DNA of 46,198 nucleotides from Verrucomicrobium sp. (GTDB lineage: Bacteria > Verrucomicrobiota > Verrucomicrobiia > Limisphaerales > UBA9464): assembly GCA_021298285.1 (NCBI GenBank), contig JAJTFN010000020.1, positions 1-46,198 of the forward strand, written 5' to 3'. The position numbers were made by a program, and so were the translations under genes. The notes under the pieces were generated by a model. That model did not search any database, had not been told where the DNA came from, and saw only the letters and a list, made by a program, of their open reading frames with translations. Shown here in pieces: positions 3,775-18,040 of the stretch (position 1 is the first letter of the stretch; each line of letters opens with the position of its first letter).

Positions 3775-4212
3775 GGTCTCTGGTCACGGCAATCGCCCGC
3801 CGGGTTCCACGGCGGACGGGTTGGGTCAATGGAGACCAGGCCGGAAACGGGGGCGCGCCCGCCCCGGACCTCCGGCGAAACACCGGGTGCCTGAAACGAA
3901 AACGACGCCATCCATCCACCGGCGAAACAGGGAATGAAGGCGTCAGACATTCTGGAATGTTTCCACGCCGGCAAACCGGCCGGCATGGCTGGCCTCATCC
4001 TTCGCTTGGCGGCGAAGCGGTCCCGGCACGAGGCAGGGACCCGACGAGCACCCTTGGCGCGATATCCTGACTCCAGGCTTCGATCCTCTCCCCCGCCTTC
4101 CCGGACTCGCGTCCAGTGGCTGTCTTGTCCGACCAGGGGGTTTGTTGCCTGATACAGTGGCGCAACCGTCGCCGATTCCCACGGCGTTCCCGCACTTCCA
4201 AAGGTGTTTTGA
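3775..4212. other. 438-bp divergent intergenic region
   Basis: This is the longest gene-free stretch in the window, between the divergent PEP-CTERM and Rieske genes, so both promoters should lie here. I see no convincing sigma-70 promoter pair. It contains an inverted repeat with 6-base arms (ACATTC-TG-GAATGT, 3947-3960) and a small hairpin (CTTCGC-TTGGCG-GCGAAG, 4000-4017). Open frames crossing it have no recognisable protein features. Confidence 0.6.
3947..3960. promoter_or_regulatory. Candidate operator palindrome
   Basis: ACATTC and GAATGT form a perfect 6-base inverted repeat with a 2-base spacer, in an AT-richer patch of a GC-rich genome and in a divergent intergenic region. It is about 170 bases upstream of the PEP-CTERM gene and 250 bases upstream of the Rieske gene. 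The size and symmetry fit a dimeric regulator half-site pair. No regulator can be assigned, and a single occurrence is weak evidence. Confidence 0.25.
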
Positions 4213-4815
4213 TTGGTGGGCCCGACCGGTGAGGGTCGACCCATTCAAAGAACGGCGCCTAAAGACCCGAATCATTCCGGCAAATCAAGTGCCAATGCGG
4301 CCCGACTCAGAAATGCTGCGCTCCGACTGGAAAACACCGTCGGTGCCTGCTGCGCGGCCGTCCCGATGCTGTCCGGCCTGGTCGCCTGGCTGGATCCGCT
4401 GGCCCGGGGCGCGGGCGGTGGCGGTTGGATCCAGGTCGCCGACCTGCCGAGCGTGCCTGCCGATGGCACACCGGTGCGGGTCTCGGTCGTCACTGCCCGG
4501 ACGGATGCCTGGACCCGGGAGGCGGCCGTGCCGGTCGGGGTCGTGTACCTGCGGCGCACCGGTCCGTCGGAGGTCGTCGCGCTTCACTCGGTGTGCCCGC
4601 ATGCCGGGTGCTTTGTCGACTACCAGGGGGACCGGAAGGCGTTCTTCTGCCCCTGCCATGACAGCACCTTCGCCGTCGACGGCTCCATCAACGACCCCCG
4701 GTCCCCGAGCCCCAGGCCCATGGACACGCTGGCCGTCGAGGTCCGGGGCCAGGCGGTTTGGCTGCGCTTCCAGAATTTCCGTCCGGGGATCCAGGCGAAG
4801 GTGGCGTTGGCATGA
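4213..4815 (+). CDS. Rieske [2Fe-2S] iron-sulfur protein of a cytochrome bc/b6f-type complex
   Basis: This is the electron-transfer subunit of quinol:cytochrome c oxidoreductase (complex III/b6f type), carrying electrons from quinol at the Qo site to cytochrome c. With the TTG start used here the product is 200 residues. Both cluster boxes are intact: C128-P-H130-A-G-C133 and C146-P-C148-H149, so the two Cys and two His ligands and the disulfide pair are all present. The usual Gly after the second His is Asp (CPCHDS). A moderately hydrophobic N-terminal stretch (about residues 43-65) could anchor it to the membrane, but I see no clear twin-arginine signal. The start is uncertain (TTG 4213 or GTG 4216). 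The stop overlaps the cytochrome b start as ATGA, indicating coupled synthesis. Confidence 0.88.
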   Translation: MVGPTGEGRPIQRTAPKDPNHSGKSSANAARLRNAALRLENTVGACCAAVPMLSGLVAWLDPLARGAGGGGWIQVADLPSVPADGTPVRVSVVTARTDAWTREAAVPVGVVYLRRTGPSEVVALHSVCPHAGCFVDYQGDRKAFFCPCHDSTFAVDGSINDPRSPSPRPMDTLAVEVRGQAVWLRFQNFRPGIQAKVALA

Positions 4816-13550: not shown

Positions 13551-14405
13551 CTAGTCCTGGGCCACGGTTCGGCCTCGGGGTGAGGCTGAGTACTGCAGGA
13601 AGCGATCCAGCAGCAGCTGGACGCCGAAATTGTTGACGCCGGAACCGAAGAACACCGGCGTCAGCTTGCCCGCCAGCACCTCGGCGTGGTCGAAGGCGGC
13701 CCCGGCCAATTCCACCATCTCGATCTGCTCGCGCACCGTGGCGTACGTCAGGTCGTCGAGCTTCTCGCGGACGATCGGGTCCTCAAGCCCGGTCACGTTG
13801 ACCGGGGCCCGGTACATGCCGCCGACCACGCGCTCGAAGAGGTGGACCTTCTTTTCGGCGCGATCGTAGATCCCCCGGAACTCCGGTCCGTTGCCCAGCG
13901 GCCAGTTCATGGCGCAGGAGCGGATGCCCAGCACGGCCTCGAGCTCATCCATCAGCAGGATGGGATCGCGGGATGGCCGGTCGAGCTTGTTGATGAAGGT
14001 GAAGATCGGCACGCCGCGCCGCGCGCAGACCTCGAAGAGCTTCCGGGTCTGCGACTCCACGCCTTTGCCGGCGTCGATGACCATGATGACGGCGTCGACG
14101 GCCGTGAGCACCCGGTACGTGTCCTCGGAGAAGTCTTTGTGGCCCGGGGTGTCGAGAAGATTGATCCGGTAGCCGGCGTACTCGAACTGCAGGACGGTGG
14201 AACTGATGGAGATGCCGCGCTTCTTCTCCAGTTCCATCCAGTCGGAGGTGGTGGCGCGCTGGTTCTTGCGGGCCGTCACCGAGCCGGCCAGCTGGACGGC
14301 GCCGCCATAGAGCAGGAGCTTCTCGGTGAGCGTCGTCTTGCCGGCGTCGGGATGGGAGATGATCGCGAAGGTGCGCCGGCGTTGGATTTCCTCCTGCTGG
14401 GTCAC
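13551..14405 (-). CDS. prfC: C-terminally truncated peptide chain release factor 3 (GTPase domain only)
   Basis: RF3 is a translational GTPase that removes RF1/RF2 from ribosomes after termination. Here the product is 284 residues, against about 530 for full-length RF3. The G domain is complete and RF3-specific: P-loop [14 protein letters not shown] (16-29), switch region [22 protein letters not shown] (85-89) and NKLD (139-142). It ends just after the [20 protein letters not shown] block with a short new tail and a TAG stop. The beta-barrel domain II and domain III are absent, and the 104 bases to the convergent neighbour encode no remainder in any frame. GTG is the start. It could be a functional mini-RF3 or a decaying gene. 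The RG-repeat gene lies upstream on the same strand, separated by a terminator. Confidence 0.9.
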
Positions 14406-14439: not shown

Positions 14440-14474
14440 CAAGGAAAACGGCACCCGGGAGGGGTGCCGTTTCC
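14440..14474 (-). terminator. Rho-independent terminator after the RG-repeat protein gene
   Basis: An 11-bp perfect stem (AAACGGCACCC, 14446-14456, pairing with GGGTGCCGTTT, 14462-14472) encloses a 5-base loop. Two further G-C pairs lie at its base across a bulged A. Read on the minus strand it ends in TTTTCCTT. It lies about 20 bases past the stop of the 14494-16239 gene and 35 bases before the prfC start, so it should separate these two transcription units. Confidence 0.85.
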
Positions 14475-14493: not shown

Positions 14494-16239
14494 TCAGGCC
14501 GCCTGGGGCGGGTGATCCGGGGCGGCAGGCGACTCGGCCGGGGCGGAGGCTGCGGCAGGTTCGGCGCTGGCGGCTGGGGACTCCCCGGCGGTGACGTCGG
14601 TCGCCTCGGCGGGAGCCTCCTGAGCCAGCGATGCCGCCACGTCCGCCGCCGAAACGGCGTCGTCCGAAGCTGGTGCCGGGGCCGTGCTGGCCTCGGCGGC
14701 GGGCTTGTCGCCCTTCTTCGGGGGCTTCGGAGCCGGAGCCGGCCGCGGGGCGGGCTTCTTGGCCGTCTCGAGCATGCCACTGGCGAACTCGATGACATGT
14801 CCCTGATGGATCAGCCAGTGCAGGTCGTTGAGCACGGTCTGCTGTTCGGCCGTGAGCGGCGAAGGGGCGGGGGCCGCCGCGCCCTCGACCGGGGCCTCGG
14901 CCGGTGCCGGGCTGGGTGCGAGGGTCTCCACCAGCCGCTTGCGGTTGGTGCCGGCGTTGGTGTTGATGTGCTCGATGATCTTCTTGGTGGTCTCCGACAC
15001 CACGCTGTTCTCGATGTCGAGGTAGTGCGGGCGGGCCACGGCCACGTGCACCACGGTCTTGTCGCGCTTGAAGAACTGGAGGCCCATCGAGGCGAAGGTC
15101 CCGCTCAGGGCCGTCGCGATGCGGATCGGGAAGCGCTTCTCCTTGTCCAGGGAGACACGCATCAGCGTTTGCAGCGGGGCGGGCAGCTTGGCGTCGGCCT
15201 TCGGGACGAAGGAGTCGACCTGTCGGATGATGGTCGGCTGATGCACCTCGATGAAGTGGGCACGAACCTCGTCCATCGACGCGAACACCTTCGGCTCCGG
15301 CACGTTGAGGGCGGTGTACTCGAAGCGGAAGCTGACCGATTCGGTCCACTGCTTCACCACGGCCTCGTCCTTCACGATCTTCACGCGGCTCTTGTACGCA
15401 TCGAAGTTCATGCGGGAGAACCTCTCGCTATGCAGTTTGCGAAGCTTCTCTTGATACCCGTGGAAGTTCGGGGGCCCGAGAAGTTCACCGGTCATCCCGC
15501 ACTGCGCCACCAGGGTCCAGACGCCCTTGGGGGGATCGCAGGGCAGCTTCTGGGTCTGGTAGAAGGTCTCGAAGTGGGCCTTCAGCGCGTGGTCGGTCGC
15601 GGCGGCCTCGCTCAGCCAGAGCGTGTCGTCCAGGCTGCAAACGAAGAGGGGTTGGACGGGCACGTCCTTCTTGGTCGCCTCGTCGCGTCGCTTGATGACC
15701 TTGAAGCCGACCGTGTAGCGGTCGGGCTTCTGCATCACGAGCCCGGCCACCTCGAAGAGGGGGTAGGCGCGGCCGCTGAGCTTGATCTGCCGGGCCAGCG
15801 AGCTGACGCCGCCGGCCTCCGGCGTGAGCGTGAGCTCGACCGGGATCAACGGCTCGGGCCTGAAGTCGGGACGGCGAGGTCCACGGCCCGGTCCTTCCCG
15901 GCGGGGAGGCCCCTTCGGATCCCAGGCAATGCCCGGGGCACCGCCACCCTGCGGGCGGGGTCCGCGATCGCCACCCGGGCGCGGTCCACGATCGCCGCCC
16001 GGACGGGGGCCACCGAAGCCCCCGGGACGGGGTCCGCGATCGCCGCCGCCCCCACGAGGCCCGCCGAAACCGCCGCCCGGACGAGGCGGGCGGTCACCGC
16101 GACCGAAGCGCCGGTCTCCGCGGGACTCTCCCTCCGTTCCGTCGTACCGGGCGTACTTGTTGGGGTCCGACGGTGAGGTGGCCCAGGCAGGCTGGAACAG
16201 TTTGTCGAGGTCGAGGTTGATCTCCAGTGGTTCGCTCAT
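14494..16239 (-). CDS. RG/RGG-repeat hypothetical protein, possibly RNA-binding
   Basis: This 581-residue protein belongs to no family I can name. Residues 40-125 are an Arg/Gly/Pro-rich low-complexity region with repeated GPRPGGDRG units, like RGG boxes that bind RNA. Residues 130-450 look folded, with conserved-looking blocks such as LIPVELTLTPEAGGVSSLAR, VGFKVIKRRDEATKKDV, PCDPPKGVWTLVAQCGMTG and LGPPNFHGYQEKLRKLH. A final 150 residues are Ala/Pro/Glu-rich linker-like sequence around a short helix (DLHWLIHQGHVIEFASGML). There is no signal peptide or membrane segment, so it should be cytosolic. The ATG at 16239 begins MSEPLEINLDLDKLFQPAW, a likely native N-terminus. A strong terminator follows. 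RNA binding is inferred from composition and the prfC neighbour only. Confidence 0.75.
   Translation of the reverse strand: MSEPLEINLDLDKLFQPAWATSPSDPNKYARYDGTEGESRGDRRFGRGDRPPRPGGGFGGPRGGGGDRGPRPGGFGGPRPGGDRGPRPGGDRGPRPQGGGAPGIAWDPKGPPRREGPGRGPRRPDFRPEPLIPVELTLTPEAGGVSSLARQIKLSGRAYPLFEVAGLVMQKPDRYTVGFKVIKRRDEATKKDVPVQPLFVCSLDDTLWLSEAAATDHALKAHFETFYQTQKLPCDPPKGVWTLVAQCGMTGELLGPPNFHGYQEKLRKLHSERFSRMNFDAYKSRVKIVKDEAVVKQWTESVSFRFEYTALNVPEPKVFASMDEVRAHFIEVHQPTIIRQVDSFVPKADAKLPAPLQTLMRVSLDKEKRFPIRIATALSGTFASMGLQFFKRDKTVVHVAVARPHYLDIENSVVSETTKKIIEHINTNAGTNRKRLVETLAPSPAPAEAPVEGAAAPAPSPLTAEQQTVLNDLHWLIHQGHVIEFASGMLETAKKPAPRPAPAPKPPKKGDKPAAEASTAPAPASDDAVSAADVAASLAQEAPAEATDVTAGESPAASAEPAAASAPAESPAAPDHPPQAA
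15940..16122 (-). repeat. In-gene degenerate tandem repeat encoding GPRPGGDRG units
   Basis: Short, imperfect tandem units read on the minus strand as PRPGG(D/F)(R/G)G. Three to four copies are nearly identical around 15950-16040. They make up the RG-rich region of the 14494-16239 gene. Such tracts can vary in copy number by slippage. Confidence 0.75.
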
Positions 16240-16420
16240 GGCTAAAAGGCCGCAATTCTGCGGGTGTTCCCGAATCGGCCCTTCACCATGCGACCCGCCG
16301 TGGGCGAAAGCAAGTGCCGTTGTCCCCGCATATCGGGGCCATCGGACCTGCAGGTGCCGGGCTCGGCGAGTCGTTCGCGCCTTCCCGGCCGGAGGAAGCC
16401 CGGGCATCCTCTCGGGCATC

Positions 16421-18040
16421 ATGCCTTGGCCGCAACCCCTCGATCCCCTGGGAAATCCATGGCTGTCCACGCTGGTGGCGGCCATCCCCGTGGTGCTGCT
16501 CCTCGGCCTCGTGGCCTCCGGCCGGGTGAAGGTGGGACTTGCGGCGGTGCTGTCGCTGGGGTCGGCGCTCGGCGTGGCCCTGCTGGCCTTCCGCATGCCG
16601 GTGCCCGCCGCGCTGGGGGCCGCGGCCTACGGCACCGCCTACGGCCTGTTCCCGATCGGGTGGATCGTCCTGAACGTGATGTTCCTGCACGCGCTGACCG
16701 TGCGGTCCGGCCGCTTCCAGGACCTCAAGGGGCAGTTGCTCCGCCTGGCACCCGACCCGCGCGTGCAGGTGATCCTGATCGCGTTCTGCTTCGGTGCCTT
16801 CATCGAGGGTGCGGCCGGGTTCGGCGCCCCGGTGGCCATCACCGCGGCGCTGCTCATCGAACTGGGGTTCTCGCCGATCCACGCCAGCGGGCTTTCGCTG
16901 ATCGCCAACACGGCCCCGGTGGCCTTCGGCAGCATCGGCATCCCGATCACCACGCTGGCGCAGGTGACCGACCTGGACGTGCTCAAGCTCTCGGCGATGG
17001 CCGGTCGCCAGTTGCCGGTCTTCTCGGCGATCATCCCGCTCTGGATCGTCGGGGCCATGTCGGGCTGGCGCGGGATCCGGGAGGTGTGGCCGGTGGCCCT
17101 CGTGGCCGGAGGAAGCTTCGCCGGGATGCAGTATCTGGTGAGCAACCACCATGGACCGTGGCTGGTGGATTCGATCTCGGCCCTGGTGAGCCTCGCGGCG
17201 GTCCTGGTGCTGCTCCGGTGGCGGCGGCGCCGCGGCTCTCCGACGGTGCCGGCGACGACCGGAACCCCGGCCGTCGCCGGGCCGTGGTGGCGTCCCTGGG
17301 TCCCCTGGTTGCTCCTGACGGCGGCGATCTTCCTCTGGGGCACCCGACCGGTGAAGGAGGCCATGGATCGGGTGGCGTCCCCGGTGTTCCAGGTGCCTGG
17401 CATCCACCAGCAGGTGATGCGGACACCCCCGGTCGTGCCGGTCGCCAAGCCCGAGAAGGTCGAATGGCGCGGCAACGTCCTGTCGGCGACGGGCACCGGC
17501 ATCCTCGTCGCCGCGGTCGCCAGCGGGTTCCTGATGGGATTCTCGCCGAGCCGGATGCTGCGGATCTGGTGGGAGACCCTCCTGGCGGTGCGGCAATCGC
17601 TGGTGACCATCGCGGCGATGCTGGCCCTGGGCAACGTCACGAAGTTGTCCGGGGCCGATGCGACGCTGGGCGTGGCCCTCGCCAAGACGGGCGTCCTGTA
17701 CCCGTTCTTCGGCACGCTCCTGGGATGGCTGGGCGTGGCCCTGACCGGCTCGGACACCGCCTCGAACGTGCTGTTCGGGTCGCTCCAGCGGATCACGGCC
17801 GAGCAGTTGGGGTTGAGCCCCTACCTCATGTGCGCGGCCAACTCGACCGGCGGAGTCATGGGCAAGATGGTCGATGCCCAGAGCATCGTGGTGGCCGGTG
17901 TGTCCGCACGGGCCGAGGGGCAGGAGGCCGGCATCCTGCGGTTCGTCTTCTGGCACTCCCTGGTGCTGGCCGCGCTCATCAGCGCCTGGGTGGCCGCCCA
18001 AGCCTATTGGCCTCCGCTCCAGGCCACGGTGGTTCGTTGA
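16421..18040 (+). CDS. lctP: L-lactate permease (LctP family)
   Basis: This lactate/glycolate:proton symporter of the inner membrane imports lactate for oxidation. Its 539 residues match the usual length for the family (about 530-560). The N-terminus MPWPQPLDPLGNPWLSTLV is typical and supports the ATG at 16421, although no ribosome-binding site is near. Family blocks include FCFGAFIEGAAGFGAPVAIT, the SLIANTAPVAFGSIGIPI segment and, near the C-terminus, LTGSDTASNVLFGSLQ and NSTGGVMGKMVDAQSIVVA. There are about 12-13 hydrophobic helices, with a charged cytoplasmic loop near residues 260-285 (RWRRRRGS). No lactate dehydrogenase gene lies nearby. It is convergent with msrP. Confidence 0.95.
   Translation: MPWPQPLDPLGNPWLSTLVAAIPVVLLLGLVASGRVKVGLAAVLSLGSALGVALLAFRMPVPAALGAAAYGTAYGLFPIGWIVLNVMFLHALTVRSGRFQDLKGQLLRLAPDPRVQVILIAFCFGAFIEGAAGFGAPVAITAALLIELGFSPIHASGLSLIANTAPVAFGSIGIPITTLAQVTDLDVLKLSAMAGRQLPVFSAIIPLWIVGAMSGWRGIREVWPVALVAGGSFAGMQYLVSNHHGPWLVDSISALVSLAAVLVLLRWRRRRGSPTVPATTGTPAVAGPWWRPWVPWLLLTAAIFLWGTRPVKEAMDRVASPVFQVPGIHQQVMRTPPVVPVAKPEKVEWRGNVLSATGTGILVAAVASGFLMGFSPSRMLRIWWETLLAVRQSLVTIAAMLALGNVTKLSGADATLGVALAKTGVLYPFFGTLLGWLGVALTGSDTASNVLFGSLQRITAEQLGLSPYLMCAANSTGGVMGKMVDAQSIVVAGVSARAEGQEAGILRFVFWHSLVLAALISAWVAAQAYWPPLQATVVR

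Follow-up and report, generated by a model that had tools for sequence, protein, structure and literature searches.

A single-copy Verrucomicrobiota protein with an arginine-rich disordered tract, C2H2-like modules and a winged helix as a probable nucleic-acid binder

The gene at positions 14494-16239 on the minus strand of the window, the 46,198-nucleotide stretch of contig JAJTFN010000020.1 from Verrucomicrobium sp. analysed here, is a genuine, single-copy gene present across most of Verrucomicrobiota. Its product of 581 residues combines a basic disordered tract with a core that is predicted to contain three C2H2-like beta-beta-alpha modules and a winged helix. Together, the tract, the modules and the winged helix suggest that the protein probably binds nucleic acid of one kind or the other. 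RNA is slightly likelier than DNA, a lean that comes from the R/G-rich tail. That RNA is the main ligand of a Verrucomicrobiota-wide single-copy binder is, based on the sequences and the model, a tentative reading to which we give somewhat less than an even chance.

The reading frame starts with an ATG at 16239 and ends with a stop codon at 14494-14496, and the encoded protein begins with MSEPLEINLDLDKLFQPAWA. The frame stays open upstream of the ATG; the alignment of the orthologues begins at that Met. The preliminary description had proposed an open reading frame of these coordinates and strand, with an Ala/Pro-rich C-terminal tail, and both proposals hold. The protein is laid out as an N-terminal motif (residues 1-36), the tract (37-125), the core (126-495) and the Ala/Pro tail (496-581). 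The features of the gene and its surroundings are:

16132..16239, minus strand: conserved N-terminal linear motif (INLDLDKLFQPAWA...), residues 1-36, a candidate docking motif (77/82 orthologues)
15865..16131, minus strand: R/G/P-rich basic disordered tract, residues 37-125 (from composition; Arg-rich and basic in 80/82 orthologues)
15655..15864, minus strand: alpha/beta N-terminal part of the core, residues 126-195 (beta-alpha-alpha-beta in the AlphaFold2 model, pLDDT about 95)
15574..15639, minus strand: finger 1, C-x2-D-x12-H-x4-H, residues 201-222 (beta-beta-alpha in the model; CDHH in 71/76 members of the order)
15418..15501, minus strand: finger-like module 2 (CGMTGELLGPPNFHGYQEKLRKLHSERF), residues 247-274 (beta-beta-alpha in the model; LGPPN-H-YQ near-invariant)
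15241..15312, minus strand: finger-like module 3, Cys pair gone and both His kept, residues 310-333 (beta-beta-alpha in the model)
15040..15180, minus strand: two helices and a beta hairpin, residues 354-400, possibly a first winged-helix-like module (AlphaFold2)
14755..15018, minus strand: winged-helix domain, residues 408-495, whose helices 2 and 3 are separated by a variable Ala/Pro insert (VIA-align)
14497..14754, minus strand: Ala/Pro-rich, acidic, fast-evolving tail, residues 496-581 (36% A, 21% P, net charge -7; dN/dS 0.19-0.38)
14444..14474, minus strand: terminator-like hairpin 3' of the gene, with a short U run (13-bp stem, z -4.6)
13551..14405, minus strand: downstream neighbour, the G domain only of RF3, 284 aa, half of a split RF3 (TIGR00503 positions 6-282 of 527)

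The gene is real because its core evolves under strong purifying selection and sister genomes hold orthologues that are 86-90% identical. In comparisons with close congeners, the core has a dN/dS of about 0.06-0.09, residues 1-36 have 0.01-0.06 and the tract has 0.02-0.05, a value flattered by the alignment of repeats; several of these pairs approach saturation at synonymous sites. Whole-genome searches found orthologues in 54/59 relatives, 111/141 genomes of the class and 119/194 of the phylum. A genome has one orthologue as a rule; in many, the single locus is matched in several pieces. An orthologue also turned up in 45 of 79 genomes searched with a profile. This fraction is similar, so that lineages lacking a match probably do lack the gene. 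Across all GTDB species genomes, 411 related stretches were detected, and nearly all of the 80 that were retained are titled Verrucomicrobiota MAGs. The PVC-specific distribution supposed in the preliminary description was tested within Verrucomicrobiota and in collections of plasmids and phages; these collections held no match to the protein, and a mobile origin was rejected on that ground.

The core, which had been described as matching no known family, indeed has none in our searches. No whole-protein match was found in NCBIfam, Pfam or PDB sequences, profile searches against PDB gave nothing better than E = 0.2, and no family unrelated to RNA emerged. An AlphaFold2 model of the core built from 78 sequences (pLDDT 89.9, pTM 0.70) has three beta-beta-alpha units, near residues 198-221, 244-273 and 304-337, and further on a winged helix at 408-495. 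With these modules the predicted structure resembles nucleic-acid-binding folds. The association with RNA or the ribosome that the preliminary description had supposed may be correct, with DNA as a live alternative. Residues 126-195 have no convincing match in PDB. The winged helix has three helices and a beta wing in the model; VIA-align ranks RPA32C first (Z 8.4, rmsd 1.6 over 61 residues), and the other top matches are mostly winged helices, including DtxR/IdeR, LexA and linker histones. Weak Foldseek rows (ESCRT-II, Rpc5) suggested a tandem winged helix over residues 354-495; with an rmsd over 10 it is not established. The finger half modelled alone reached a pLDDT of 87, and its first two VIA rows are C2H2 fingers. 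The scores are 4.9 for 6skg_Bo, 4.3 for AFV1p06 (2lvh) and near 3 for Kaiso, all below Z 5. CTCF finger arrays recur among the Foldseek rows for the finger half, and 6skg_Bo also appears in an independent sequence-profile search at E = 1. Foldseek returned no E below 0.001 for either the whole core or the finger half, and its proteasome and haemagglutinin rows were set aside as noise. Taken by themselves, the structure scores of the finger half would be weak.

Orthologues from a divergent family, f36 (six genomes; L075, L094, L179-L184), provided further insight into the modules. They carry complete C2H2 fingers of the form C-x2-C-x12-H-x4-H at modules 1 and 3, and the exact PS00028 pattern, C-x(2,4)-C-x3-[LIVMFYWC]-x8-H-x(3,5)-H, is found at module 1 in 6/6 and at module 3 in 4/6. 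At module 2, C-x2-C is present and an extra, last His is added. Two or more PS00028 matches arose in 1 of 20,000 shuffles, and a reciprocal search from f36 recovers the window protein at 5e-18. PS00028 does not match the window protein; outside f36 it occurs once, in L096. Gathering thresholds of PF00096 and related Pfam models are likewise not reached by the window protein; in four orthologues, which come from two families, finger 1 has sub-threshold matches (E 0.002-0.15) to several C2H2 families. In the window's order, the His residues of module 3 are nearly invariant (H328 in 76/76, H333 in 75/76). Module 2 belongs to the best-conserved parts of the core. Based on these data we infer that the core is a degenerate C2H2-like array, partly independent of zinc, followed by a winged helix. 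The tree is compatible with either gain or loss of the zinc ligands, as Cys2His2 occurs in two separate clades, f36 and f34, and the branch leading to f36 is very long. The f36 orthologues have no Arg tail, suggesting that the tail is dispensable for the role of the core.

In the reading that we prefer, a binder of nucleic acid with RNA as its main ligand, the three C2H2-like modules and the winged helix would form the surface that reads the nucleic acid. Finger 1 probably binds zinc through Cys-Asp-His-His, and modules 2 and 3 would fold mostly without zinc. The disordered Arg-rich tail would raise affinity by holding the phosphate backbone non-specifically, and it may bring RNA-protein assemblies together. 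The conserved N-terminal motif, L-x-L...P-x-W, is probably the docking site of a constant partner. Against this reading, two of the three modules are without most of their zinc ligands, the structure matches of the finger half stay below Z 5, the f36 lineage has no Arg tail, no conserved neighbour points to a pathway, and the core is only slightly basic, with a net charge of +5.

A DNA-binding role, as a nucleoid-associated protein or a global transcription regulator somewhat like MucR, is a possible though less likely explanation. The fingers and the winged helix would read DNA and the Arg tail would add affinity for the backbone. Most winged-helix and C2H2-finger folds bind DNA, the winged-helix rows include the DtxR/IdeR, LexA and linker histone domains, and fingers of the Ros/MucR type still bind DNA when their site is Cys-Asp-His2 or free of zinc (PMC9779718, PMC5745721). 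However, a long R/G/P tail is unusual among bacterial DNA regulators, and RPA32C, the best match of the winged helix, is a protein-interaction domain. The invariant LGPPN-H loop of module 2 is not known to have a precedent in DNA reading.

It is more doubtful that the protein is a scaffold, its degenerate fingers and winged helix no longer binding nucleic acid but docking partners, and its tail serving phase separation or electrostatic tethering. The eroded zinc ligands of modules 2 and 3 and the protein-binding nature of RPA32C would fit such a role, and so would the docking-like motif at the N-terminus. The pattern hydrophobic-x(2-6)-hydrophobic-x(0-2)-[PGS]-x-W is found there in 77/82 orthologues and in 5% of shuffled N-termini. 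Speaking against a scaffold, modules 1 and 3 each keep a conserved pair of His, and the Arg charge is maintained across the phylum.

The tract at residues 37-125 consists of 36% G, 21% R and 21% P and has a net charge of +11. It had been described as an RG/PRPGG repeat of the RGG-box type, spanning residues 40-125. The Arg-rich PRPGG/RG tract is present and conserved, not missing from all homologues. However, it is not an RGG box, for which several closely spaced RGG triplets are needed; the window protein has one. The tract holds 7 RG and 6 PRP, and a shuffled tract gives 6.7 RG, an equal number. At least one RGG is found in 50/82 orthologues. The conserved property of the tract appears to be charge and disorder, not RGG, because arginine fraction and net charge are uncorrelated with GC (rho 0.08 and 0.11) and glycine content rises with it (rho 0.39). 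The glycine trend lends partial truth, for the glycines, to the very improbable idea that high GC alone produced the tract in an otherwise ordinary protein; the charge contradicts it, as a relative at 40% GC keeps a net charge of +12 with Lys substituting for part of the Arg.

No neighbour is conserved beyond the genus, the neighbours at 24 loci are mixed, and the large apparent clusters of neighbours seem to be shadow ORFs that overlie the gene. The gene has no sigma-70 promoter match. The hairpin behind it, which the preliminary description had called a strong terminator, is indeed strong (-33.5 kcal/mol for a 66-nt stretch), but its U run lies within the stem and a scan for terminator consensus and patterns does not list it. 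The divergent neighbour is an L-lactate permease gene (16403-18040, plus strand; PF02652, E 9e-145), and a cobalamin riboswitch is found at 4039-4217 on the minus strand (Rfam RF00174, 67.5 bits). The adjacent RF3 had been taken as a functional clue, a use of the linkage that fails because RF3 adjoins the gene only in part of genus g1 and no neighbour is conserved elsewhere. A partner in translation termination encoded with RF3 has next to no chance of being correct: the two genes share a strand across an 88 bp gap in the window, an arrangement repeated in several genus members, but RF3 lies elsewhere in other members (e.g. G004 and G008) and in practically every other genus, and the gene occurs in genomes with no RF3 match (G045, G048 and G049), so that this reading is largely refuted by the missing linkage.

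RF3 itself is split in the window's genus and in two further genomes of the family (G020 and G023). Domains II-III are encoded by a separate, unlinked ORF, G000:C144:2330-3064(-), covering TIGR00503 positions 282-523. In G004 the two halves lie 173 kb apart on one 275-kb contig; in G023 they lie about 4.8 kb apart on one contig in reversed order. The breakpoint falls in the linker that joins domain I to domain II, and there is no intein-sized extension. Both halves are under purifying selection (dN/dS 0.04-0.06 for the N half; dN 0.02-0.12 against dS 0.28-1.1 for the C half). RF3 is a full-length single gene in sister genera (G019, G022) and in much of the order. An apparent split in G037 is a contig break. 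In four genomes of the order (G039, G045, G048 and G049) the RF3 search matches only other translational GTPases (EF-G-like). A limited literature search found no report of a split RF3, which is weak evidence of novelty.

Retention of an unnamed single-copy protein by most of a phylum points to a basic function. A bolder proposal, drawn from the model and the alignments and unlikely as it stands, is a phylum-wide RNA-binding hub with a eukaryote-like layout, in which an Arg-rich disordered tail is joined to three C2H2-type modules and a winged helix, and the fingers have become largely independent of zinc yet keep their fold. If true, canonical Cys2His2, Cys-Asp-His2 and zinc-free fingers would be seen side by side in one family. 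To our knowledge, multi-finger C2H2-like proteins are rare in bacteria. The family is a concrete target for study in a cultivated verrucomicrobium.

Among known systems, RPA32C and the winged helix of archaeal Rpa2 share the fold of residues 408-495 (Z 8.4 and 7.8). They differ in having 13-16% identity to it and in the Ala/Pro insert of the window protein, in which no OB fold is recognised. The best structural row for the finger half is 6skg chain Bo, a C2H2 zinc-finger protein from the 70S ribosome of Thermococcus kodakarensis (Z 4.9); this chain has 47 residues and one finger, and its sequence resemblance is at noise level. Eukaryotic RGG-box proteins such as FUS and nucleolin also place an Arg/Gly-rich disordered segment beside folded modules. 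Unlike them, the window protein has one RGG and PRPGG repeats, and its glycine is partly driven by GC. In the Ros/MucR family, which includes Ml1-Ml5 of Mesorhizobium loti, Cys-Asp-His2 sites and functional variants lacking zinc are found together (PMC9779718, PMC5745721), and finger 1 has such a Cys-Asp-His2 site. Ros has a single finger in which 9 residues separate Cys from His (PMC9779718), whereas the window protein has three modules and a 12-residue spacer; Pfam scans gave no Ros/MucR family. Classical C2H2 arrays (PS00028/PF00096; CTCF, Kaiso) resemble the window protein in the 12-residue spacer and in the three beta-beta-alpha modules that are predicted for it. The window protein departs from them in its C-D-H-H at finger 1, the His pair only at module 3, the long linkers between modules, the winged helix, the Arg tail and its scores below the Pfam threshold. 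Modules 1 and 3 of f36, in contrast, match C-x2-C-x3-[hydrophobic]-x8-H-x4-H exactly. The family forms a natural series, with complete zinc fingers at one end and eroded ones at the other.
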